A DNA stretch of 31,565 nucleotides from positions 1-31,565 of IMG/VR virus record IMGVR_UViG_3300009507_000075. The stretch is one strand, 5' to 3'. This document shows positions 20,437 through 31,565 of the stretch, piece after piece. A program made the translations under genes and the position numbers. The notes beneath the pieces are model-generated. The model did not search any database. It was given only the letters and a program-made list of their open reading frames with translations, and was not told the DNA's origin. Origin of the DNA: a virus. Each line of letters begins with the position of its first letter. Within the stretch, counting starts at the first letter, position 1.

Positions 20437-20703
20437 ATGACAGAACTATTTGACTTTGGGTTTACACTTGTAGATGAGAATGAACTGGACGCAGTGCAGA
20501 ATGCACAGGCACAGGTTAAGAATGTCTCTACATCTGTCTCCGAGACACAAGAAAAATTAGACAGTTTGTTCAATGCGATTCAACCCCTACTGAACAACCT
20601 CAAACAGAACCCAGAGAAAGAGTACATACTCTGGCCAAACAGACTAGAGAAGATAGAACTGTTTGAAGACCATATTCAGACGATCTACTCAGGAACAAAG
20701 TAA
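20437..20703 (+). CDS. Conserved small phage protein, possibly virion-associated
   Basis: The protein has 88 residues from ATG 20437, which has AGGAG seven bases upstream; an in-frame ATG 18 bases earlier would precede the ribosome binding site. An acidic N-terminus (TELFDFGFTLVDENELDAV) is followed by a coiled-coil-like helix (about 20-55) and the motif QNPEKEYILWPNRLEKIELF (about 59-78). I have seen this last motif in small proteins of T4-like marine phages, with no established function. Late promoter control suggests a role in assembly or in virions. Confidence 0.7.
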   Translation: MTELFDFGFTLVDENELDAVQNAQAQVKNVSTSVSETQEKLDSLFNAIQPLLNNLKQNPEKEYILWPNRLEKIELFEDHIQTIYSGTK

Positions 20704-21512
20704 TGATTCTATATAGAACCCAACCTAAGAATTCTATAGAGAACACTATCGTCAATCTCGCGACCAAGGAAAAGTTGCTAGAAGACTTCCGTGATAGTGT
20801 ACCAAAGTTTCAAGGTAAGGATACTAAGTTTTCAGACATAACTACCCTCGTAACAGACGCATCCATCTTGGATGGCATGATTGCAACTTCGGGTTATCAA
20901 AACATTCTTGTGGTACCTTCGTTTCAAGATCACGAATACAGTAGACTAAGAGATCGTAACTATCGTCCAATTAACAGTGCGGGAGACCACCTCTTTCCTG
21001 TTGTACATATGATAAACGAAACGCATGGCAACCTCTATGTTGCACAACCCAAGGTGGGTAATATCTTCACTGAAATATACGAGAAGTATGATGTCAATAT
21101 GATAAGAAGTGATAGTTGGTTCAAAATAGATAGTTCTTTTAAAATGCCTAAGACTGATGTAAAGTTTGATGCTGTTGTCCTACTAGGAAACGAAGGTATC
21201 AAGAGAGGCAGTTTCCGTGCTCAAGATGTCAAGAAGAAGTTTGCAAAGTATTGTACTGACAACTTCCAATTGGTTGATGTCTATCGTGGTGATCTACGGA
21301 AACTTAATGGTGGTAGTAAAGAGAAACCCAATGCTATTAATCGTCTAATTACATCGGTAAACACCCCAAAAGTTATATATTCTCCCAAGGAAAAGTTCGG
21401 TATCTCTTCAGAGGTCTTAGAGCAACTCCAGACCTTGAAAGGACAATTACAGTATCATCGTCTTGTGGACAATTTAAAAACTATAGATCAATGGTATAAA
21501 GTTTATGAGTAA
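20703..21512 (+). CDS. Unknown protein, first of a tandem paralogous pair
   Basis: This 269-residue protein's start overlaps the upstream stop by one base. Its body contains ATSGYQNILVVPSFQDHEYS (about 61-80) and, later, VKFDAVVLLGNEGIKRGSF with KFAKYCTDNFQLVDVYRGDL. The following gene has matching blocks in the same order. The alternation of hydrophobic strands (ILVVPSF, FDAVVLLG) with helices suggests a Rossmann-like alpha/beta fold. A methyltransferase-type fold is conceivable, but no SAM-binding glycine motif is visible. I cannot assign a function. Confidence 0.6.
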   Translation: MILYRTQPKNSIENTIVNLATKEKLLEDFRDSVPKFQGKDTKFSDITTLVTDASILDGMIATSGYQNILVVPSFQDHEYSRLRDRNYRPINSAGDHLFPVVHMINETHGNLYVAQPKVGNIFTEIYEKYDVNMIRSDSWFKIDSSFKMPKTDVKFDAVVLLGNEGIKRGSFRAQDVKKKFAKYCTDNFQLVDVYRGDLRKLNGGSKEKPNAINRLITSVNTPKVIYSPKEKFGISSEVLEQLQTLKGQLQYHRLVDNLKTIDQWYKVYE

Positions 21513-22350
21513 CGATAAGTTTTTTGTTGTAAAGTCTTCGGATGGGGGTGAGGTTCATAGTCGCATTCTCACCCAAGATGGTATCACTGATTTGTACAAT
21601 AAGGTAATGGAAGTCATTGCAGGACATCCCTCTTATGATTACACAGAGGAAGACATGTTCGTCAAGATGCTCATTTTGCAGGGCATATGTGTATCCAACA
21701 TTATCGCAATGATGGGATATTCTAAGATACTTGTAGTACCTTCATTCAGAAACAGTAAATTTCCTTCGTTATATAATCATGGTGACCAAGACGTTAGATA
21801 CAACCTCATCAACAACCTTTGGCCAGTCATCAACTCATTCTTTGGGCAAGACCCACATATATACTACACATTCCCTAGTGACCATGTATCATTCTGTCGC
21901 GACCTTGCCAGAGATTTCCATGTTGACAATGTAGTCTGTAATAAACGATATGTGATGGGAGATGATACATTCTGGGTAGAGAACGAAGGTATTGAGTTTG
22001 ATGCGGTGTTCCTTGCGGGACAACCCATTGATGACGGAGTGACATTTGCAGCGGCAGATATCAAAGCAGACTTTGCGTCTATATGTACCGAGGACTTTGA
22101 TCTCATTGAGATGTATGACGAGGAAGGTGTAGATGGACTTTCACTGCGTAATCACTTAAAGAATAACACATTGAAATCACACGAGATGCCACCAAGACGC
22201 ACCAGACTAACAGGTGAGGAAAAGGACATTCGTGAAATTTGTGAATATATAAATAACAATACTGTAAAGATAAACCCAACAGAAGGGAATCTGGCAAACA
22301 TAGTACCAAGATTGTCAACCCTATTCCAAAGAGAACTAAAAGTTTACTAG
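21505..22350 (+). CDS. Unknown protein, second of a tandem paralogous pair
   Basis: This 281-residue protein overlaps the preceding gene by eight bases. It shares three blocks with it: MMGYSKILVVPSFRNSKFPS (about 68-87), IEFDAVFLAGQPIDDGVTF, and KADFASICTEDFDLIEMYDE. Lengths and block spacing are similar, so the two arose by duplication and have diverged strongly. Function is unknown. A TATAAATA sequence at 22248-22255 lies inside its 3' part and could feed the next small gene. Confidence 0.6.
   Translation: MSNDKFFVVKSSDGGEVHSRILTQDGITDLYNKVMEVIAGHPSYDYTEEDMFVKMLILQGICVSNIIAMMGYSKILVVPSFRNSKFPSLYNHGDQDVRYNLINNLWPVINSFFGQDPHIYYTFPSDHVSFCRDLARDFHVDNVVCNKRYVMGDDTFWVENEGIEFDAVFLAGQPIDDGVTFAAADIKADFASICTEDFDLIEMYDEEGVDGLSLRNHLKNNTLKSHEMPPRRTRLTGEEKDIREICEYINNNTVKINPTEGNLANIVPRLSTLFQRELKVY
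22248..22255 (+). promoter_or_regulatory. Possible internal late promoter TATAAATA
   Basis: This is a perfect TATAAATA within coding sequence (codons for Glu-Tyr-Ile-Asn), about 105 bases before the small gene at 22361. It could be a true secondary late promoter or a chance match in AT-rich codons. No leader feature supports it. Confidence 0.35.
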
Positions 22351-22510: not shown

Positions 22511-23190
22511 TGATTAAGTTTAAAAAGTTTATGACAGAGGGTGTAGATGACCCCGCAATCTTCAAAGCAGTTTTTCTTGCGGGTGGTCCCGGCAGTGGTA
22601 AGTCTTTTATCGTAGGTAAGACAGGACTTCCTGCTCTCGGTCTGAAAGTTGTAAACTCAGATGACGCATATGAAACTGCAATGAAAAAGGCGGGACTTGA
22701 AATGTCTCCCGATAATATTTTCTCAGTTCAAGGTCAAGACATCCGTGGTCGTGCAAAGGCACTTACTGGTAAGAAACAGGCACGATACCTTATGGGTAGA
22801 CTTGGTGTTGTGGTTGATGGAACTGGTAAAGACTTTGAAAAGGTCAAGAAACAAGCAAAAGCAATGAAAGACTTAGGTTATGATATCGCAATGATATTTG
22901 TTAACACTGACCTTGATACTGCAATTGCACGTGATGCCGCTCGTGACCGTACCATTGGTGAGAAAGAAGTTACCAACTACTGGAAGACCGTTCAAAAGAA
23001 CATAGGTGCATTCCAGACTTTCTTTGGTAAACCTAATATGCTTATCGTTGATAACTCTAACGGTAAAGACTTCAAAGTAGAAACTCTCCGTGCGTACAAA
23101 GATGTTAAGAAGTTCTTAGGTAAAGCACCAGACAATGTCAAAGCAAAGGCATGGATTAAACAAGAAAGAGAAAAGAAAAAGAGGACATAA
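22510..23190 (+). CDS. P-loop kinase-like protein (zeta-toxin / polynucleotide kinase type)
   Basis: The protein has 226 residues from ATG 22510, overlapping the upstream stop by one base. A GTG four codons earlier is an alternative start. A clear Walker A motif GGPGSGKS lies at about 25-32, preceded by the strand KAVFLA. VNSDDAYE follows, resembling the substrate-binding Asp region of zeta toxins and small-molecule kinases. GRLGVVVDGTGKD and IAMIFVNTDLDTAIARDAAR are consistent with a Walker B-like strand and lid arginines. The C-terminus is highly basic (KQEREKKKRT). It probably phosphorylates a small substrate or nucleic acid end. The stop codon lies in the loop of the terminator hairpin. 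Confidence 0.75.
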   Translation: MIKFKKFMTEGVDDPAIFKAVFLAGGPGSGKSFIVGKTGLPALGLKVVNSDDAYETAMKKAGLEMSPDNIFSVQGQDIRGRAKALTGKKQARYLMGRLGVVVDGTGKDFEKVKKQAKAMKDLGYDIAMIFVNTDLDTAIARDAARDRTIGEKEVTNYWKTVQKNIGAFQTFFGKPNMLIVDNSNGKDFKVETLRAYKDVKKFLGKAPDNVKAKAWIKQEREKKKRT

Positions 23191-23199
23191 AGTCCTCTT
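23170..23199 (-). terminator. Intrinsic terminator of the leftward glycan operon
   Basis: On the minus strand an 8 bp stem AAGAGGAC/GTCCTCTT (23179-23199) closes a TTTAT loop and is followed by TTTCTTTTC. It lies about 40 bases after the stop of the gene ending at 23240. It overlaps the 3' end of the convergent kinase gene. The plus-strand side has no T run. Confidence 0.7.
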
Positions 23200-23239
23200 C
23201 TAAACTGTCATAACAGTCGTATTATGGTAGTTATTCCTA

Positions 23240-23881
23240 TTAATCCGTTTCTAGTGTCGTATTAATCGGGTTCACCCTCACATTATCTCCAACTGGAATC
23301 TTAATATCAGAATGAGAATGATATAGATTAAAGGTAGTGTGAGGGAATTCCTTGAACATATTAGTCCAGATAGGTCTCCAGTTACTCGCAAGTCTCACCG
23401 TATTGGCAGTACCACGATCACTCTCTAACAGCAAGTCAGTAAAACTCTCCAGATTCATATCAAAGATACTATCAAACCCATAGATGTGTACTTCGGTTGC
23501 CTTCATCTTGGCACATGCATAATGAACTGCCATGTGTCCACAGTTGAAGTTGGTTGCCGCCATAGTCGTGTTACCATCTATTGTGGCATACGCAGGGACG
23601 TGTTGATAGAAACCTTTGATAAGGTGTGAGTATTTAAGATAAAATGTTCCAGACTGTTCCATCCAGATACGAGGTCTTGTACCTAGAATCCAGTCGTACA
23701 TATCTAGTTTGATATGACCTTCCTGTAGTGCCTTCATCATCTTGAAGTCAACCATACAGGTTGCATGAACTTCCTTCCGTGGAATTTCAAAGGGAGGCAT
23801 ATTACAAATAAGCAACTTTCCTGGCGTACCTCTCTTAAAGATACCCGCATTGTCTCCATTGCCCAGAACATTTACTCGCAT
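23240..23881 (-). CDS. Putative glycosyltransferase-like protein (GT42/DUF115-like features)
   Basis: This 213-residue protein begins MRVNVLGNGDNAGIFKRG, a glycine-rich nucleotide-sugar-type loop, followed by LLICNMPPFEIPR and a CMVDFKMM strand. Residues near 113-140 read CGHMAVHYACAKMKATEVHI then YGFDS, resembling the helix-strand-GFD element of sialyltransferase-like GT42 and DUF115 proteins. No exact family could be confirmed. It is the last gene of the operon, four bases after the co-chaperonin gene, and the glycosyltransferase-rich context supports a sugar-related role. Confidence 0.5.
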   Translation of the reverse strand: MRVNVLGNGDNAGIFKRGTPGKLLICNMPPFEIPRKEVHATCMVDFKMMKALQEGHIKLDMYDWILGTRPRIWMEQSGTFYLKYSHLIKGFYQHVPAYATIDGNTTMAATNFNCGHMAVHYACAKMKATEVHIYGFDSIFDMNLESFTDLLLESDRGTANTVRLASNWRPIWTNMFKEFPHTTFNLYHSHSDIKIPVGDNVRVNPINTTLETD

Positions 23882-23885
23882 TATA

Positions 23886-24152
23886 TTACTCTACAATCAA
23901 CTTAATATGGTGACAGTCAATGACCGCACATTTCAATCCATCTAACTCAACAGGCATTGCTTTACTCCAGTCAAGAAAAACCTTATTCTCCACGACTAGT
24001 TGCATCTTGGTAACTTCTTCACCATTACCATACGAGATAACGACTGCGGGTTTGTTACCAGACGAGATATCGTTCTGTAGAATGATACCTCCTGCTGTGG
24101 TTGTCTCTGCTTCTGCCTGTGTCACTAGGACATTATTACCTAATACTCTCAT
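23886..24152 (-). CDS. GroES/gp31-like co-chaperonin
   Basis: This 88-residue protein has a cpn10-like layout: MRVLGNNVLVTQAE at the N-terminus, a mobile-loop-like ETTTAGGIIL (16-25, compare ETKSAGGIVL in GroES), a GNGEEV turn, and a C-terminal CAVIDCHHIKLIVE strand. T4 gp31 (111 residues) replaces GroES to fold the major capsid protein inside GroEL; GroES itself has about 97 residues. This protein is shorter than either. Its start overlaps the nuclease-gene stop by four bases (ATGA). Confidence 0.75.
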   Translation of the reverse strand: MRVLGNNVLVTQAEAETTTAGGIILQNDISSGNKPAVVISYGNGEEVTKMQLVVENKVFLDWSKAMPVELDGLKCAVIDCHHIKLIVE

Positions 24153-24556
24153 AACTCAACTAACTCTCTATTCTTCAAATGTTGTTCTGCGATATCATCT
24201 TTGGATTGACCCATGTAACGCACTGCGTGATGTTCACTAATTAACCAGTCATTAACACTTCGGACTCTGCCCTCACCATCATCAACAAGGAATTCACCAA
24301 GGATTCTTCCGAACTTGCCCTTGCCATCCTTTGTTGTTCTCAGAGTAGGTTCTTCACCTAGACGAGATACGAGGAAGTCTTTTGCGGCAAGACCGTATTT
24401 CTTTTCTTCTTTATCACGAGTTCGTGATTCGGGGGTGTCAACACCAAGTAACCTGATTCTTGATTTCCGTAACCAAACTCCGAACCCCAAATCAATGTCA
24501 ACGTCAACGGTATCACCGTCAACGACACGAACCACTTTTGTTCTGTATTCATACAT
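24149..24556 (-). CDS. Staphylococcal-nuclease-like (TNase) nuclease
   Basis: This 135-residue protein has the SNase fold pattern VVRVVDGDTVDVDIDLGFG (8-26) and RIRLLGVDTPESR (33-45), later KFGRILGEF (81-89). Arg35, Asp40, Glu43 and Arg84 match the catalytic and calcium-binding residues of staphylococcal nuclease (Arg35, Asp40, Glu43, Arg87). There is no signal peptide, so it should act in the infected cell. AGGA lies about eight bases upstream of the ATG. Such nucleases recur in marine T4-like phages, where a role in host DNA breakdown or DNA processing is assumed, not proven. Confidence 0.88.
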   Translation of the reverse strand: MYEYRTKVVRVVDGDTVDVDIDLGFGVWLRKSRIRLLGVDTPESRTRDKEEKKYGLAAKDFLVSRLGEEPTLRTTKDGKGKFGRILGEFLVDDGEGRVRSVNDWLISEHHAVRYMGQSKDDIAEQHLKNRELVEL

Positions 24557-24568
24557 TATTTTTTCCTA

Positions 24569-25219
24569 TCATTTTCTATAATTCCAATGTTGCTGTTCAG
24601 GTTCACCCCAACTATGTAATCGTCCTTCCACATCATGTAGCACTACACACTTCTTATCATCGGGATTGTCGTTATAGAAGTATCTATAACCAAATAACGC
24701 AATGTCTGGTGCCATCTCTTCTATCAACTTTTCACAAAACATCTTACAACCATTGACACGATTAATGTCCGTGTAAGTACTCAGTGCAACATCAACACCC
24801 CTTGAATTAGGTGCACTCCCATAGACCGTACAGTCAATCAAAGTAAAGTCCTCTTGAGATTGTTTCATTCCCGCAAAGAATGTAGGTTCGGGTGGAAGTT
24901 CTTCCAAAATCATGTTAAATGATCTAATTGGTTGAGCATCCACATCAACATATATTCCCCCGAAATCTCTCAATAGTAGCAATCTAATCCTGTCAGATAT
25001 AAACGCCCACTTCAAGTGTCCGCCTGGGTCTGGGTGTGTCATCCAATGATTTAGAAACTCATCATCCGAATAAATATCAAATACCTCATTACCCCAAAGT
25101 TTAACTTCCCAGTCCTGATGTAGTAGTTTCATCTTATCAACATATCTACGACAGTGGTCTGGCATGTCACGATCACCAATCCATATCTGATGAATGATCT
25201 TTGGGATTTTGTGGTTCAT
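24569..25219 (-). CDS. Glycosyltransferase with DXD motif (GT32-type sugar transferase)
   Basis: This 216-residue protein has IPKIIHQIWIG at 5-15 and SDRIRLLLLRDFGGIYVDVD at 75-94. Both are hallmarks of the Gly_transf_sug/GT32 family. The DVD at 92-94 should coordinate the metal and nucleotide sugar. There is no membrane segment, so it is probably cytoplasmic. Its start overlaps the upstream stop by one base. It probably adds one hexose-type sugar to the glycan built by this operon; donor and acceptor cannot be read from sequence. Confidence 0.87.
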   Translation of the reverse strand: MNHKIPKIIHQIWIGDRDMPDHCRRYVDKMKLLHQDWEVKLWGNEVFDIYSDDEFLNHWMTHPDPGGHLKWAFISDRIRLLLLRDFGGIYVDVDAQPIRSFNMILEELPPEPTFFAGMKQSQEDFTLIDCTVYGSAPNSRGVDVALSTYTDINRVNGCKMFCEKLIEEMAPDIALFGYRYFYNDNPDDKKCVVLHDVEGRLHSWGEPEQQHWNYRK

Positions 25220-25413
25220 TAAAAATTATTCTTAATCGTATGAATCTTCTCTTCTGCGTTTGCTATTAGTTCAATCTGTGTTTCAATAGCACCTATGATA
25301 TCTGGATGTTCTCCGATACCCACACTACTCTTTAGGTAGATATTGATGTTTGCCTTCGCAACCGCAATTTCGCCTTCAAGTCTCTTGATTAATGCTTCTA
25401 GTAGTATATTCAT
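25219..25413 (-). CDS. Small conserved helical protein of marine phages
   Basis: This 64-residue protein is almost wholly helical: MNILLEALIKRLEGEIAVAK, then YLKSSVGIGEHPDIIGAIET and a final helix. The VGIGEHPDI turn between two helices is a motif I recall from small proteins of marine T4-like phages. Function is unknown. It has AGGA upstream and ATGA overlap with the preceding gene. It sits between two glycosyltransferases with coupled translation on both sides. Confidence 0.7.
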   Translation of the reverse strand: MNILLEALIKRLEGEIAVAKANINIYLKSSVGIGEHPDIIGAIETQIELIANAEEKIHTIKNNF

Positions 25414-26063
25414 TCCATTTGTCCTTTTATGGTATCCTTACCTTTTCCACCAGTATGGTGGACTATCTTGGGATTCTTTACGTTAATACCATCTATATAG
25501 TCTAGTCTTAACGTGTTATATGTGTGAGGCATGGGTTCAATGCAAGTCATCTTCAATATGGCATCACCACCCATAATGAGATATAGTACCTCTTGGTCAC
25601 CTTGTACGGGATTGCGGATACACTCGTCTGCCCATGACTTTAGAATGTTGGGTGTGCCTTCAACCACAACAACACCAGAGTTGTACCATACACCCATATC
25701 CGGTCTACGTAACGTCCAAGGTCTATCCTCTACCATAGAGAGTTTACCTTTAACACTCCACTTGAATATGTCTTCTATGTTGTCTTTGATTTCACAATCG
25801 GTGTCAATCCAACATACTTTGTCCACACCATCTAATTTAGATGCGTCCAGTATCGCACGAGGTTTCTTGAACCACCCCTTTGCCTCACTCTTGATATCTA
25901 TTACTAGATCAAAGAATGGTTCCATCTTCTTGCGAGTTTCGGTAGTCATACCAAAATCAGCAAGTACCACGGGTAGGTTGTTATGCTTACGATAGTTCTC
26001 TATGAACCAAGGTAACTGCCATGCGGTATTCTCATCGCATCCAGTTAGAAATGTATTATGCAT
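25410..26063 (-). CDS. GT8-like glycosyltransferase
   Basis: The protein has 217 residues from the ATG at 26063 (MHNTFLTGCDENTAWQLPWF), which overlaps the previous gene by eight bases. An in-frame ATG 39 bases earlier is possible. KVCWIDTDCEI carries the DXD (about 87-89), GVWYNSGVVVVEG and GDQEVLYL follow, and the C-terminal IVHHTGGKGKD resembles the metal- and donor-binding HxxGxxKPW-type element of GT8 enzymes. It is probably a retaining sugar transferase acting in the cytoplasm on the same product as its neighbours. Confidence 0.78.
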   Translation of the reverse strand: MHNTFLTGCDENTAWQLPWFIENYRKHNNLPVVLADFGMTTETRKKMEPFFDLVIDIKSEAKGWFKKPRAILDASKLDGVDKVCWIDTDCEIKDNIEDIFKWSVKGKLSMVEDRPWTLRRPDMGVWYNSGVVVVEGTPNILKSWADECIRNPVQGDQEVLYLIMGGDAILKMTCIEPMPHTYNTLRLDYIDGINVKNPKIVHHTGGKGKDTIKGQME

Positions 26064-26703
26064 TGATAATTTCATACCCTTCTTTCCAATTGTGTTTCGC
26101 AAGACACCCTTCTTCTACTTGTATCGTGGTAAACGTGTCTCTCGCCTCTGCAATGAAAGGATACCACTCTTGTAACCAAGGGAATGTTGTTTTGTTTAAA
26201 TATACATCTGTAGGTTTTGCATACATCGGTGCATTCTCCACCAACAGTCTTCCACCTGCGGGAGTAACCATGTACGCATGTGCGCCTGGGAAATAATTTT
26301 TAGTTGTTAGGGGATTGATACCCAACATCTTCGGAGTGTTCCACTTACCGTATGATGGGTGTCCAAGATTCATTACATAGTTAGGATGTGCGGGGGGAAT
26401 CTTGTCAACCATGATTGCGTCATGTTCAAAAATGACAAAGTTCTCATTACCCTTAGAACACGCTTCCCACAATGCGTAGTGTGATAAGAATGCAGAAATA
26501 CAATTTAAATTACGGGAATATTTCTCGTCAAATTGTATAGGGTCAATGCCTCTGGTCTTTAACAATTCCACAGGATTATCTGCGGGGGTGATTGCATCAA
26601 ACTTCTCAATCTCTAGTCCATGACGTTTACCCGATTCAATACATCTATTAGCAACTTTAACGGACGATGGATTATCTTTTATTGTAATTACATATGCTTT
26701 CAT
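26056..26703 (-). CDS. GT25-family glycosyltransferase (LPS-type), copy 2
   Basis: The protein has 215 residues from ATG 26703, which overlaps the preceding stop as ATGA. The longer frame is rejected because it runs back into the upstream gene. It starts MKAYVITIKDNPSSVKVANR, then has CISAFLSHYALWEAC and NFVIFEHDAIMVDKIP with the acidic EHDA motif of GT25 (LpsA/LOS-type) enzymes. GAHAYMVTPAGGRLLVENAP is typical of the family's second half. It is a diverged tandem copy of the next gene upstream. Confidence 0.85.
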   Translation of the reverse strand: MKAYVITIKDNPSSVKVANRCIESGKRHGLEIEKFDAITPADNPVELLKTRGIDPIQFDEKYSRNLNCISAFLSHYALWEACSKGNENFVIFEHDAIMVDKIPPAHPNYVMNLGHPSYGKWNTPKMLGINPLTTKNYFPGAHAYMVTPAGGRLLVENAPMYAKPTDVYLNKTTFPWLQEWYPFIAEARDTFTTIQVEEGCLAKHNWKEGYEIINA

Positions 26704-27413
26704 TTTGTTGTGGTTGATCTCAACCCTCTCTGTATCGTTGTGTAGTATGGATATACAACTTCTAACCAAGGGAAGAACTGTTTGTTCATCAGTGCATCAT
26801 TTGGCCACATTCCCACTTCTCTTACCTTATCTAGTAGTTTCTTAGCACCCTTGGGTGAGATCATATATGCAGAGTTTCCTGCAAGTCCCTGCGGTACATC
26901 CATGTCATCTATCGTAGGTACTGGTTGTACCCCAACATAGGACGATACCTTCTCATGGAACACACCAGACCTTCTGGTTGCACCCCTTGGATCATTAAGA
27001 CCTATTATACCACCCTTCCAGTCAGAAGTCAATACCTCTGGCCAGAATTGTCTAGTAAAGAATGCATCATGTTCTAGGACTACAATAGTCTCATCAAGGT
27101 CAATTGCCTTCTGCCATGCTCTCATATGAGATACCATACACGCAATTCTATTGTTGTGGTTTGCAGTCGGATAGTGGGTGAGTCGTAGTCCTGTTTTCAT
27201 ATCAAGACCGTCTTGTCGTGGTTCAATAGGATATGACCACGGAGTACCTGTAAACCCCAAGTCCCTAATGTCAGTACCAATGGTGTCAGGAATCGTGGCA
27301 GGAAGAATGATAGGTTCTAGTTTACTTGAGGTTTTCTTAATGGATTCAATCACATGACGAGTCGCGACTGTAGACTCGTGATTGTTTATCATACTAATTA
27401 TGAATGCTTTCAT
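26700..27413 (-). CDS. GT25-family glycosyltransferase (LPS-type), copy 1
   Basis: The protein has 237 residues from the ATG at 27413 (MKAFIISMINN), chosen because the tandem copy begins at the same point; two codons more are possible. It contains IACMVSHMRAWQKAIDLDET and VVLEHDAFFTRQFWP with the EHDA acidic motif, then NSAYMISPKGAKKLLDKV. The family includes lipopolysaccharide glycosyltransferases. The block order is the same as in copy 2. It overlaps the upstream gene by 20 bases. Confidence 0.85.
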   Translation of the reverse strand: MKAFIISMINNHESTVATRHVIESIKKTSSKLEPIILPATIPDTIGTDIRDLGFTGTPWSYPIEPRQDGLDMKTGLRLTHYPTANHNNRIACMVSHMRAWQKAIDLDETIVVLEHDAFFTRQFWPEVLTSDWKGGIIGLNDPRGATRRSGVFHEKVSSYVGVQPVPTIDDMDVPQGLAGNSAYMISPKGAKKLLDKVREVGMWPNDALMNKQFFPWLEVVYPYYTTIQRGLRSTTTK

Positions 27414-28158
27414 CAACATCTCTTACATACTCCCACCTGTCTGACAGGTAACAACCACCATGATAACTTTTGTGGTACATTCCAAATGGTTCTGATAGTA
27501 CTTGGTACCATCCTTCTTCCGCACTTTTTAATTTCTTACCTTTATATAGACTATCCACTAAGTCAGTATCCCAACAGTCCCTTGGGTGGATTATTAAGGC
27601 ATCATTAATATAATAGATTGTCTCCTCACCCATATCCTTGAGTTCGTTGTACCCATGATTACCATAGTAGTTCATACAGTTGAACCCTATTGGTATCATA
27701 TCACCATAAGACTTCTCTAGCAATTCTTGCCAAGGTATGGTCTCAGACAAGATAGTATCAAAACGAGTGCGAATAATCATATCATACTCTTGGGGTATGG
27801 TCTTCATCATCTCGTTGTGGATTATGATTTGTTTATGCCAGTTTGCGGATGCGTAGGCATGTTTCTTTTGAGAATGGTCTATACCATCTTCTTCCCACTC
27901 TTGTATGATACGAGGAAATATATGTCTTCTCAGATGACTTGCGTCATCGGGATAGGGTTCGGTGTCAAAGACTGGATGATACAGATTCTCTGGTTCATCA
28001 AAGTAGTAATCTACGGTGGTATCCACCGTGTCTTGATTATTCCATGAACCAGTGAACATCTTATCGTGGGGAATTACTCGCTGTGTTCTATCAATCCATT
28101 TCTGATCACAGTTTTCGTTCCACCTTCCAGATAAACATAATGCTGTCTTCACTACCAC
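27394..28158 (-). CDS. Putative glycosyltransferase-like protein (LSGR...RTRFD type)
   Basis: This 254-residue protein begins MVVKTALCLSGRWNENCDQK and has YDMIIRTRFDTILSETIPW (about 125-143), then FNCMNYYGNH and TIYYINDALIIHP. The N-terminal LSG loop followed by a distant RTRFD is a combination I associate with poorly described sugar-transfer proteins in capsule clusters and large phages. The RFD could play the DXD role. The family is not confirmed. It overlaps the upstream fused gene by seven bases. Confidence 0.5.
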   Translation of the reverse strand: MVVKTALCLSGRWNENCDQKWIDRTQRVIPHDKMFTGSWNNQDTVDTTVDYYFDEPENLYHPVFDTEPYPDDASHLRRHIFPRIIQEWEEDGIDHSQKKHAYASANWHKQIIIHNEMMKTIPQEYDMIIRTRFDTILSETIPWQELLEKSYGDMIPIGFNCMNYYGNHGYNELKDMGEETIYYINDALIIHPRDCWDTDLVDSLYKGKKLKSAEEGWYQVLSEPFGMYHKSYHGGCYLSDRWEYVRDVDESIHN

Positions 28159-29498
28159 TCACGCAAATAAGTCTCTAGGTCTTCGGGTGTGCCAAGACCC
28201 CACATCTCTTCTACATTATGTGTGAATATCTTCTTACCCATCAAGATTGCTTGATTGAATACAGGACACACATAGAACTCACCATTCACTCTCTTGTCCA
28301 TTGCGATCATATCCTTGGCAGAATCTACGTAGTCTCGTCCCTTTTTCCAGTAGTAGAACCCCACAGTCGCATTGTCACTGATTGGGTTCTTCTCTGCAAC
28401 CTTGGTAACCATGCCATCTTTGTCAACCGCAGCGTAACTCCATTTAGGATGTGTTGCTTTGAAAGTAACAATACCACCATCCGCATTCAGTTCATTCATC
28501 TTGTAGATGAAGTCAAGTGAATTCCAGTTCACCCACTGGTCAGAGTTTGCGATAAACAATGGTTGGTCATTGTCAATATATTCCTCGGCAAGTAGTGTCG
28601 TACATGCGGCACCTTCGGTCACACCATCCACCTCTACAATCTTACAGTCGGGTGCAATTAGACTCAACATATTGTCTAGGTGATACTTCTCACGATGTTC
28701 CTTCTGTACAATAAAGATGTAGTTCGCATCAATGTTGATGTTCTCTACCACAGTCTGAATCATTGGTTTGCCGTTGACATCAATCAGTGGTTTGGGAAAG
28801 GTGTATCCTGCTTTAGAGAAACGACTACCCGCACCCGCCATCGGTATTAATATATTCATCTTCTTATTCACCCACTTTGCCCTCGTATCTCTGGAACCAC
28901 TTACTTGTTTTACGATATCCATATTGATATCATCTGGAGAATCTACTCGTATGATCTGTGTATGAGGAACACCAGAATGGTATGCCGATGCAAGACCTTT
29001 TGGTGAGTCCTCAATGATCACACACTCTTCGGGATATACTCCGTACTCTGACATTACGTTCCACCACATTTGAGGATGTGGTTTAGGATTGTCCACATCA
29101 GTGCTAGACTGTATCATATCTACATAGGATTGTATTTCTAACCCATGCACACATTTCATCACAGTTTTATCCATTGCATTAGAACAGATCGCTATCTTGT
29201 ACCCATCCTGTTTTAGATTAGCAAACACCTCTGTAATGTCGGGGTTAGGCATAATGCTATTCAGTTTTATATACGTGCGAGATTGTTTGGCGATGCTAAC
29301 CCTCCTTTGCATCTCTCCCACAATACCCATCATTTCCAACTTATCTATTGTCGGAAGTCCGTCATATTTTGACAGATGGTCTTCTAGGGTAATTCTGGAA
29401 TATCCATTATCTTCTAATGCTTCGTTCAGTGCATAAAAGTGCATCTTCTTGGTGTCAACAAGAACCCCATCCAAATCAAATAATACTAGTTTAATCAT
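28152..29498 (-). CDS. Fused HAD phosphatase and sugar nucleotidyltransferase
   Basis: This protein has 448 residues in two domains. Residues 1-200 are a HAD hydrolase: FDLDGVLVDT at 7-16 (Asp8 nucleophile, Asp10), ICSNAMD at 104-110, and VIIEDSPKG at 160-168. From Met214 a nucleotidyltransferase begins, MNILIPMAGAGSRFSKAGY, then FPKPLIDVNGKPM, with NSD at the metal site. The second domain resembles NTP transferases of capsule and LPS clusters. One polypeptide could dephosphorylate a sugar intermediate and activate a sugar-1-phosphate, as in heptose-type pathways. Which sugar is made is unknown. Its stop overlaps the gene starting at 28158. Confidence 0.87.
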   Translation of the reverse strand: MIKLVLFDLDGVLVDTKKMHFYALNEALEDNGYSRITLEDHLSKYDGLPTIDKLEMMGIVGEMQRRVSIAKQSRTYIKLNSIMPNPDITEVFANLKQDGYKIAICSNAMDKTVMKCVHGLEIQSYVDMIQSSTDVDNPKPHPQMWWNVMSEYGVYPEECVIIEDSPKGLASAYHSGVPHTQIIRVDSPDDINMDIVKQVSGSRDTRAKWVNKKMNILIPMAGAGSRFSKAGYTFPKPLIDVNGKPMIQTVVENINIDANYIFIVQKEHREKYHLDNMLSLIAPDCKIVEVDGVTEGAACTTLLAEEYIDNDQPLFIANSDQWVNWNSLDFIYKMNELNADGGIVTFKATHPKWSYAAVDKDGMVTKVAEKNPISDNATVGFYYWKKGRDYVDSAKDMIAMDKRVNGEFYVCPVFNQAILMGKKIFTHNVEEMWGLGTPEDLETYLREW

Positions 29499-30114
29499 TT
29501 TCCCTCACAGCAATAATGTAACTGTCACCCTTACTGGTCAACTTTCGGTGATCATATCGTGTAACACTGTGTTTGTTAATTTCTTCAACGAACAGGTCGT
29601 TTTCTTCCTTAATGTATCTTCCTGCCTTCTGGTTAAACCAATTGTTTGATTTTATTTCCTGATCTGACATAAGTTCCATTGCCCAGACATCCTCAATAAA
29701 GTATGTTCCATCTTCATTAAGTCTACCATACAAGTTTTGAAAAGTCAAGTGGTTTGCTTTTGGCCAATGTGCACCATCATCAATAATGAAGTCAAACTTC
29801 ACGTCACCCCATTCCTTCTGAATCAATCCACCAAGGGTATTGGATGTGGAATCCGATTTCAACCAATGTACACGTTCTTTCTTTAGAATACCAATGGTTT
29901 TGGGGTTTGTTCTCTCAAAGATGTCAATCGTATAGATGTTTGCATTAGGAAAGTACTCGTGTAACGCACTAGTAGATGCTCCAAGATAGGTACCAACTTC
30001 TAGTATGTTTATCGGATCGGTTCTGCGTGGTTTGAAGTATGGTTCGTACACCAAATGATAGTGATGTTTTGCACCCTTGTCGCAATCGTATTTGTCAAAT
30101 AAGTCTTTAAGCAT
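29491..30114 (-). CDS. Class I SAM-dependent methyltransferase
   Basis: The protein has 207 residues from ATG 30114, which overlaps the sulfotransferase stop by eight bases; a longer frame to 30150 is out of keeping with operon spacing. KYDCDKGAKHHYHLVYEPYF lies near the start, then the SAM motif INILEVGTYLGAST (about 35-48), YTIDIF, and FIIDDGAHWP. The combination resembles macrocin-type sugar O-methyltransferases. In this operon a sugar O-methylation is the likely reaction. Confidence 0.8.
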   Translation of the reverse strand: MLKDLFDKYDCDKGAKHHYHLVYEPYFKPRRTDPINILEVGTYLGASTSALHEYFPNANIYTIDIFERTNPKTIGILKKERVHWLKSDSTSNTLGGLIQKEWGDVKFDFIIDDGAHWPKANHLTFQNLYGRLNEDGTYFIEDVWAMELMSDQEIKSNNWFNQKAGRYIKEENDLFVEEINKHSVTRYDHRKLTSKGDSYIIAVREND

Positions 30115-30805
30115 TCCAGTAGTTCCTTGTCGCACCTGTATCAAAATCAAATCCCCAATAGTCTATGTCTTTCTTATACCAATCAGCGATTATTTGTATT
30201 GTCTTATCATTGTATATATCTCTGTAAGAAGTACCGTATCCAGTCTTGCCTTTATCATTAGGCACACGAGTAATGTTACGAGGGTTTGGGTCAGTCAGTA
30301 GACCGAAGTAAAGTTTCACATCTTCGTTGTAGTTCTCAAACCGTAGGATGTGACACCGATTGTTTCCTTCTTCGTCACACACGTGTTCGTATGCATTATA
30401 CCAACCACGTATTGCACGGTGCCACATATATTCAACACCACCCCACTTGTGACGTTCCTCTAGGAATGCCTCAAAGGATGAAGTGTCTGCATAGTTTTCT
30501 GGTTGAGTTCCTTCGTATTCCATTACCTTCTTTGCGAACATATAACGAGAACACACTCTGTCCCAAGGATTACGAACGATTGCGACTGCTTGGTGTGTTT
30601 CTTTTAAGTCTTGTTTCCAGTCTCTCCAACGTGCATGTTCGTACCCTGCATGGTCTTTGGTGTCATGCATCTTCTGTGTAACACCCTGCACATATGATGC
30701 ATTCTTTAAGTTGTTTGGGTGTCCCAGTAAAACCTTACGTCTAATCTGGTCATTCTTTCTTATTGTCATCCCACCATTTTTAGGGATGTGTATGAACATC
30801 TTCAT
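30107..30805 (-). CDS. PAPS-dependent sulfotransferase-like protein
   Basis: The protein has 232 residues from ATG 30805, which overlaps the upstream stop as ATGA. HIPKNGGMTI (6-15) matches the 5'-phosphosulfate loop, and IVRNPWDRVCSRYMF (about 76-90) matches the 3'-phosphate site of the sulfotransferase 2 family. The last third carries CHILRFENYNEDVK. It should transfer sulfate from PAPS to a sugar or other acceptor. Finding it among glycosyltransferases points to sulfation of a carbohydrate. PAPS would have to come from the host. Confidence 0.87.
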   Translation of the reverse strand: MKMFIHIPKNGGMTIRKNDQIRRKVLLGHPNNLKNASYVQGVTQKMHDTKDHAGYEHARWRDWKQDLKETHQAVAIVRNPWDRVCSRYMFAKKVMEYEGTQPENYADTSSFEAFLEERHKWGGVEYMWHRAIRGWYNAYEHVCDEEGNNRCHILRFENYNEDVKLYFGLLTDPNPRNITRVPNDKGKTGYGTSYRDIYNDKTIQIIADWYKKDIDYWGFDFDTGATRNYWNA

Positions 30806-31338
30806 TCTCTTTCCCACTTGACATAGTATCTGTTCTTGTCGGGCATGAACTCTGTTACTTCATATCCGAATCGTTTTGCTAACAAAAGATGGTGTTCTAA
30901 TCTCCAATGGAAGAACGGAACATCCTTTACTTTTGTATTACCGTGGTCACGGTGTGCGGGATTACATCTCCAATAGATGCGAGACTTCTGTTTGAGTGCG
31001 TTGACCATTCCCTCGGTCTGGTCTCGTATTGTATCATAGTTGCCAAAGTTAATACTACCCAATGCAAACGCAACATCATACTTCTTTTCAGATTCAAAGT
31101 ATTCAATCGGTACTTGTTCGTCAGACCCTATGTCTGTAATATCAATTCCATGCAAGTCGGCAATATGACGCTTAAAAGGATTGAGACCACAACCAACATC
31201 CAGAACTGATTCCCCTTCTCCAATTTCTTCAATTAATCTAAATCCTGTCCAGTAATATCCATCTAACCCCGCAGTGCGGGACATCGGCCAATCATATGTA
31301 AAGTAGTCTTTCAACCATTTTCTTGTGTGGGCATCCAT
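30802..31338 (-). CDS. Small SAM-dependent methyltransferase-like protein
   Basis: This 178-residue protein has SAM motif I SVLDVGCGLNPFKRHIADLH at about 44-63 and the strand KYDVAFALGSINFG, which stands in the motif IV position. TGFRLIEEIG precedes motif I. The C-terminal part contains WRLEHHLLLAKRFGYEV, a normal end for class I methyltransferases. The substrate is unknown; a sugar is likely from context. Its ATG lies 28 bases inside the previous gene. Confidence 0.8.
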   Translation of the reverse strand: MDAHTRKWLKDYFTYDWPMSRTAGLDGYYWTGFRLIEEIGEGESVLDVGCGLNPFKRHIADLHGIDITDIGSDEQVPIEYFESEKKYDVAFALGSINFGNYDTIRDQTEGMVNALKQKSRIYWRCNPAHRDHGNTKVKDVPFFHWRLEHHLLLAKRFGYEVTEFMPDKNRYYVKWERE

Positions 31339-31565
31339 ATATAATAATCTCGTTTGCCATCGTTGTGTTTCTCAAGTCCATGTTTCTCAATGAACTCCAT
31401 GCTAAATTTATTCTGTAGAGCAATCTGTGATTTCATAACCTTGTCATTCTTATAGTGTCTGTAGTCAGGGTAGGTAATGTCCCATCCACCTGCTTCTTTC
31501 CACCAGTCAAAACAATCATCATCGGGTCTTATCACTATATGTATAGGGCATTTATACTGAGTCAG
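31311..31565 (-). CDS. C-terminal part of an unknown protein (cut by window edge)
   Basis: The frame is open from the right edge to the stop at 31311, giving at least 84 residues. A GTG at 31535 could start a 74-residue protein. However, the codons before it (LTQYKCPIHI) read as plausible protein and no ribosome binding site is seen there, so the gene probably begins beyond the window. Visible motifs are VIRPDDDCFDWWKEAGGWDI and a charged C-terminus (FIEKHGLEKHNDGKRDYYIW). No family is recognised. A near-late-promoter TATAAATG sits at 31548-31555 on this strand. Confidence 0.6.
   Translation of the reverse strand: MTQYKCPIHIVIRPDDDCFDWWKEAGGWDITYPDYRHYKNDKVMKSQIALQNKFSMEFIEKHGLEKHNDGKRDYYIWMPTQENG

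Follow-up and report, generated by a model that had tools for sequence, protein, structure and literature searches.

The window analysed here, a 31.6-kb virus fragment (31,565 nucleotides; IMG/VR record IMGVR_UViG_3300009507_000075) carrying T4-like baseplate genes and gp32, contains a single tightly packed operon on the minus strand, running from 31565 to 23240. The operon is genuine, its core is under strong purifying selection, and in relatives it is preceded by a conserved word of the T4 late promoter. We tentatively read it as a late-expressed, phage-encoded operon for the assembly and decoration of a glycan whose acceptor would be a surface protein of the virion, for example, a tail fibre or head protein, and we put the chance of this at close to even. 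We infer both that all of the enzymes serve one glycan and what its acceptor is; a virion protein is only slightly favoured over host lipopolysaccharide (LPS).

Enzymes of the operon

Besides a small phage gene and a truncated open reading frame (ORF), the interval from 24569 to 31565 holds nine genes for enzymes. The nine enzymes are two S-adenosylmethionine (SAM) methyltransferases, a sulfotransferase of the type dependent on 3′-phosphoadenosine 5′-phosphosulfate (PAPS), a HAD/nucleotidyltransferase fusion, a GT-A-fold protein, two GT25 proteins, a GT8-like protein and a GT32 protein. According to start and stop positions, adjoining genes of the operon mostly overlap by a few bases, while others nearly abut. 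The features are as follows.

31311 to 31565, minus strand: P0010, C-terminal 84 amino acids of a P-loop protein, 5′ end cut by the contig end; full-length homologues in relatives
30802 to 31338, minus strand: P0009, small class I SAM methyltransferase; weak PF13489 (Methyltransf_23) match (0.019), clear SAM motif
30107 to 30805, minus strand: P0008, predicted PAPS-dependent sulfotransferase, carbohydrate type; PF03567 (Sulfotransfer_2) 8e-8, PHROG 3347
29491 to 30114, minus strand: P0007, SAM methyltransferase; PF13578 (Methyltransf_24) 4e-6, PHROG 21658
28152 to 29498, minus strand: P0006, fusion of a HAD phosphatase (beta-phosphoglucomutase-like) and a sugar-1-phosphate nucleotidyltransferase; PF13419 (HAD_2) 8e-35, PF00483 (NTP_transferase) 1e-10
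27394 to 28158, minus strand: P0005, predicted GT-A-fold glycosyltransferase, no Pfam family; AlphaFold model, PDB structure matches
26700 to 27419, minus strand: P0004, GT25 glycosyltransferase; PF01755 (Glyco_transf_25) 5e-12, EHD motif conserved
26056 to 26703, minus strand: P0003, GT25 glycosyltransferase; PF01755 9e-11, EHDA motif
25410 to 26075, minus strand: P0002, GT8/Nucleotid_trans-like glycosyltransferase; PF03407 and PF01501 in 12 and 11 of 20 aligned members
25219 to 25413, minus strand: P0012, small phage protein; PHROG 1811
24569 to 25219, minus strand: P0001, GT32-type (DXD) glycosyltransferase, accessory; PF04488 (Gly_transf_sug) 1e-10
24149 to 24556, minus strand: thermonuclease-like endonuclease within the operon; PHROG 452
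23886 to 24152, minus strand: GroES-like co-chaperonin within the operon; PHROG 3188
23240 to 23881, minus strand: P0011, core cassette protein, DUF115/MptE-like, putative glycosyltransferase; weak PF01973 in the family
23177 to 23201, minus strand: terminator-like hairpin with T tract, operon end

By profile and motif, P0008 is predicted to be a carbohydrate-type PAPS sulfotransferase. It scored 33.1 bits against the curated cut-off of 22 for PF03567, a profile matched by all 19 aligned members of its family, and the 5′-PSB and 3′-PB motifs (F.HIPKN.G and RNPW....SR) were kept in at least 95% of 88 homologues. A PDB sequence search with the single sequence gave no match, and the corresponding profile search gave weak matches, some of them due to chance. 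Among the other decorating enzymes, a VLDVGCG motif was conserved in homologues of P0009, and a TGAPGSRWSGV motif was conserved in full-length homologues of P0010, for which no Pfam match was detected; P0010 is possibly a second sulfotransferase-like enzyme. P0006 matched 4evw and beta-phosphoglucomutase in the PDB and is ∼49% identical to proteins from glycan clusters of Synechococcus phages.

The AlphaFold model of P0005 (pLDDT 88) had 109 PDB matches at E ≤ 0.001, the top ones being GT-A glycosyltransferases, with a Foldseek probability near 1 and modest TM-scores (0.3 to 0.44); R130 is invariant and D126 nearly invariant in its family. By its modelled fold, P0005 is a predicted GT-A-fold glycosyltransferase. 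P0003 and P0004 scored 42.4 and 46.6 bits, respectively, against the PF01755 cut-off of 24, and both have the acidic ExD-type motif of GT25. The best PDB sequence for P0002 was glycogenin (E = 0.005), and its W.DTDC motif is conserved. P0001 was rejected as a core member of the cassette, being absent from the relatives retrieved with the sulfotransferase and found outside the window only in the near-identical strain L117.

P0011 is a putative glycosyltransferase, as judged from its family and model. PF01973 was matched weakly by 9 of 37 aligned family members (best E = 0.0032) and not by P0011 itself, which therefore falls short of a DUF115/MptE-like assignment by profile cut-off. Viral DUF115 and GT29 models resembled the AlphaFold model (pLDDT 90.6) weakly, and no PDB entry matched it with confidence. 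IMG/VR contains at least 534 related stretches, and no cellular relatives were recognised outside phage contigs, matches in cellular bins being mostly phage contigs. A host origin of P0011 was rejected: among six cellular-bin matches, gp32 lies beside the cassette in L107, L108 and L110, cassette genes are present in L109, and L106 and L111 hold too few markers for their origin to be judged. Public bins of metagenome-assembled genomes include cassette-bearing phage contigs (L107 to L110), indicating that the phage DNA in these bins either was misbinned or belongs to phages of the hosts concerned.

The initial annotation had described at least nine coupled enzyme genes in this interval, whose families were borne out by profile, PHROG, PDB and structure matches, and a pathway of sugar activation, several sugar transfers, sulfation and methylation, which was supported and is held together by selection. 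Two further glycosyltransferase-like proteins had also been placed in the interval, of which only P0005 was found; the candidate for the other, P0011, lies outside it. A terminator had been put after the gene set, and the hairpin at 23201 to 23177 does exist, but the interval is not the operon end: to the left of 24569, on the same strand, the nuclease gene, the GroES-like gene and P0011 come before the hairpin. The operon thus harbours a nuclease and a GroES-like gene (23886 to 24556). On the plus strand, two tandem related ORFs without a Pfam match (20703 to 22350) lie beside the cassette, as they do in many relatives.

Conservation and late promoter word in relatives

Uncultured marine T4-like phages carry related cassettes in ∼45 sulfotransferase lineages, but sequenced isolates hardly ever do: the sulfotransferase was found at 76 IMG/VR loci (∼45 groups at 80% identity), and a search of 50,697 phage records gave only a single distant match. 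Gene order was compared using clustered ORFs. A compact form of the cassette has the order GT8, sulfotransferase, methyltransferase, GT25, GT25, P0002, P0011. The window lineage has an extended form, which is truncated on the right by the contig end. The genes to the right, which the initial annotation had proposed to inspect, were therefore visible only in relatives, in which the shared segment is preceded by genes for HAD, carbamoyltransferase, radical SAM/SPASM, GT25, GT8, ferritin-like, amidotransferase and cupin proteins and by two P-loop genes. The cassette stays together while flanking genes vary between lineages.

Co-occurrence was counted in two sets of loci; as loci are related within each set and the sets partly overlap, the counts do not represent independent events. 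The set seeded on the sulfotransferase comprised 40 loci flanked by 5 kb or more on each side; GT8 was present at all 40, GT25 at 39, the methyltransferase at 38 and P0002 and P0011 at 33 each. This count could not test the core status of its own seed, and hence a second count was seeded on P0011 (41 loci with 8 kb upstream). At least two GT25 genes were present at 40 of these loci, the nuclease gene upstream of P0011 at 40, P0002 at 33, the methyltransferase at 32 and the sulfotransferase at 26, indicating that the glycosyltransferases are core and that sulfation is frequent but optional.

For pairs with estimable synonymous divergence (dS), the ratio of nonsynonymous to synonymous divergence (dN/dS) was 0.05 to 0.19 for the cassette genes (P0009, 0.08 to 0.12; P0008, 0.08 to 0.11; P0003, 0.10 to 0.15); dS was saturated for P0010 and most P0007 pairs. 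These ratios indicate that the cassette is under strong purifying selection. Together with the recurrence of order and content in many contigs and the conservation of catalytic motifs throughout the cassette families, they argue that the arrangement is more than chance.

The sequence NATAAATA/TATAAATA is the late promoter of S-PM2 and T4 (PMC2984593). In the extended cassette, TATAAATA was present ∼45 to 60 bases before the ferritin-like gene, which heads the segment running on into the window, in all nine distinct upstream sequences. Of 15 compact cassettes, which are headed by the small gene c11, 12 also had the word in the 200 bp before them, compared to 0.4 expected from random positions; c11 might be the owner of the promoter word in this form. 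In a near-complete relative (G001), the coding strand carries 25 copies of TATAAATA, 8 of them in the structural module, and the opposite strand carries 5. Not being confined to that module, the word is a sign of late transcription and not of structural genes in particular. The word is absent from within the window cassette, as expected if the promoter of the window lies past the contig end.

Possible acceptors of the glycan

In the proposed pathway, P0006 would activate a sugar phosphate, and the GT8-like protein, the two GT25 proteins, P0005, the GT32 protein and probably P0011 would add sugars stepwise. The chain would be methylated, and sulfated using PAPS supplied by the host, and the carbamoyltransferase and amidotransferase of longer relatives may attach further groups. 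Synthesis of PAPS by the phage is not claimed, as the sole adenosine 5′-phosphosulfate (APS) kinase match was a short P-loop protein that also matched general AAA families. This APS-kinase-like protein (PF01583, 30.7 bits; L112:2702-3532) is from a sulfotransferase-bearing relative (G016) and adjoins a nucleotidyltransferase-like protein beside UvsX.

A virion protein would be modified in the cytoplasm while virions assemble. It is slightly favoured as the acceptor because of the late promoter word, the phage-private nature of P0011, the absence of recognised export genes and the relatives of the GT25 proteins. The cassette genes include no recognised flippase, polymerase or polyprenyl-phosphate transferase, which fits modification of a protein in the cytoplasm. 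The closest annotated phage relatives of the GT25 proteins sit in proteins named 2OG-Fe(II) oxygenase, and a combination of GT25 with such an oxygenase is known from protein-modifying lysyl hydroxylases. Two tail-fibre-like ORFs of G001 (870 and 1,135 amino acids; L093/L094, 118975 to 125005) contain long pentapeptide-like repeats of the form xG[ND][YF]x, in which Tyr, Asn, Ser and Thr abound, and are possible acceptors. A collagen-like acceptor was not indicated, as G-X-Y repeats in G001 never reach eight in a row. A broader possibility, with a probability well below even, is that uncultured marine T4-like phages of a widespread group cover their particles, late in infection, with a methylated and sulfated glycan, the product of a set of enzymes private to phages, which would give the virion an acidic sugar surface.

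Several points weigh against the favoured explanation. Acceptor, product and expression are predictions from the genes. GT8 and GT25 are also classic families of LPS core synthesis, whose enzymes likewise need no flippase, and late timing would also suit alteration of the host surface towards the end of infection. In the near-complete relative, the cassette does not adjoin tail-fibre genes. The promoter region of the window itself lies beyond the contig, so that late-unit organisation was observed in relatives only. P0009 and P0010 are without an assigned substrate, and sulfation is optional, the sulfotransferase being absent from 15 of the 41 P0011 loci.

The same pathway could act on the host instead, extending, methylating and sulfating the LPS core or O-chain during infection and thereby blocking superinfection or the re-adsorption of progeny to debris. 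We regard this as a serious contender, with a probability appreciably below even. As well as the two LPS-core families, it is consistent with the O-chain modification inferred for related pelagimyophages by their authors (PMC7029224), with the like explanation given for LPS clusters of the P-SSM2 type (PMC2984593) and with UDP-glucose dehydrogenase-like and epimerase-like ORFs that were noted, by reading of the ORFs, in the near-complete relative. However, a late promoter implies action when most of the risk of superinfection is over, P0011 has no recognised cellular relative, and the cassette contains no recognisable acyltransferase or membrane glycosyltransferase.

Other readings are far less probable. 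A soluble small molecule, such as a glycosylated and sulfated metabolite, is improbable: the radical SAM/SPASM, ferritin-like, amidotransferase, cupin and carbamoyltransferase genes of longer relatives recall natural-product clusters, but glycosyltransferases are the most constant part of the cassette and no scaffold-making synthase was recognised. Modification of phage DNA, by glucosylation or hypermodification of bases, has a precedent in T4, which glucosylates hydroxymethylcytosine; we consider it very improbable, as 15 of the 16 relatives searched, many of them fragmentary, had no match to thymidylate synthase/hydroxymethylase (PF00303), the near-complete relative has instead, by reading of its ORFs, a ThyX-like protein, and sulfotransferases, GT25 and GT8 are not DNA-modifying families. 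Least probable of all is that most of the genes have no function and serve as filler in headful packaging, an idea put forward for cyanophage LPS clusters (PMC3037559) and contradicted here by the intact motifs, the low dN/dS values, the conserved gene order and the conserved late promoter word.

Comparison with known systems

LPS-annotated clusters have been described in P-SSM2 (24 genes; PMC2984593), in S-SSM7 and S-SM2 (PMC3037559) and in pelagimyophages (PMC7029224), with host LPS as a product inferred in each of these papers. The window shares with them several glycosyltransferases and sugar-nucleotide enzymes in a T4-like phage. The cyanophage clusters, to which S-CAM9, S-PRM1 and B23 can be added by homology, resemble it in their marine T4-like background and their runs of glycosyltransferases, and these last three phages have homologues of the HAD/nucleotidyltransferase fusion (∼49% identical). 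No homologue of the window's sulfotransferase or P0011 was found in these cyanophage isolates, their glycosyltransferases differ, and no extended set, with its amidotransferase, cupin and ferritin-like genes, was evident in the regions read.

When the G001 capsid protein was compared, phage C48C1 (71%), OM43 phage Melnitz (64%) and pelagiphage HTVC008M (∼61%) were the nearest records. Phage C48C1 (Kyanoviridae), for which a literature search found no paper, has a P0011 homologue (60%), the nuclease and carbamoyltransferase/radical SAM neighbours but nothing that matches the sulfotransferase or either GT25 protein. The pelagimyophage HTVC008M, of a related T4-like marine lineage, has a P0002 homologue (31%) grouped with a methyltransferase, a carbamoyltransferase and a UDP-glucose dehydrogenase but no match for the sulfotransferase, the two GT25 proteins or P0011; sulfotransferases are not mentioned in the main text of PMC7029224. 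CsgG-like and curli-repeat-like ORFs, recognised by reading of the ORFs in G001 (28228 to 29765; L089:8228-9765), recall those of pelagimyophages (PMC7029224).

The amidotransferase of longer relatives (L012:7072-7623), with conserved GICHGAF and WHPE motifs, best matched the gamma-glutamyl-CDP-amidate hydrolase of the Campylobacter capsule phosphoramidate pathway (NF045546; 54.9 bits, compared to a curated cut-off of 250). This route was not adopted, since the amidotransferase, which lies outside the window in relatives only, matched alone and weakly, and the glutamine kinase was not recognised.

The role of LPS-like clusters in marine T4-like phages has been a question since their discovery; whether they function at all has been asked (PMC3037559), and the role of phage sulfotransferases has been called unclear (PMC10580990). 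Conservation of the core and of the late promoter word, together with strong purifying selection, argues that this cassette works, and works late, so that its target becomes a testable question. If virions do carry sulfated sugars, this would bear on the adsorption, decay and recognition of abundant ocean viruses. The sulfotransferase-bearing conserved cassette, its late promoter word and the evidence for its selection were not found described in the literature searched, most subscription papers being outside it. The route had initially been called unusual; multi-enzyme sugar pathways are not unusual in themselves, as LPS-annotated clusters are already known in marine T4-like phages, but the conserved, late-promoted cassette with its sulfation gene is a new form among them.

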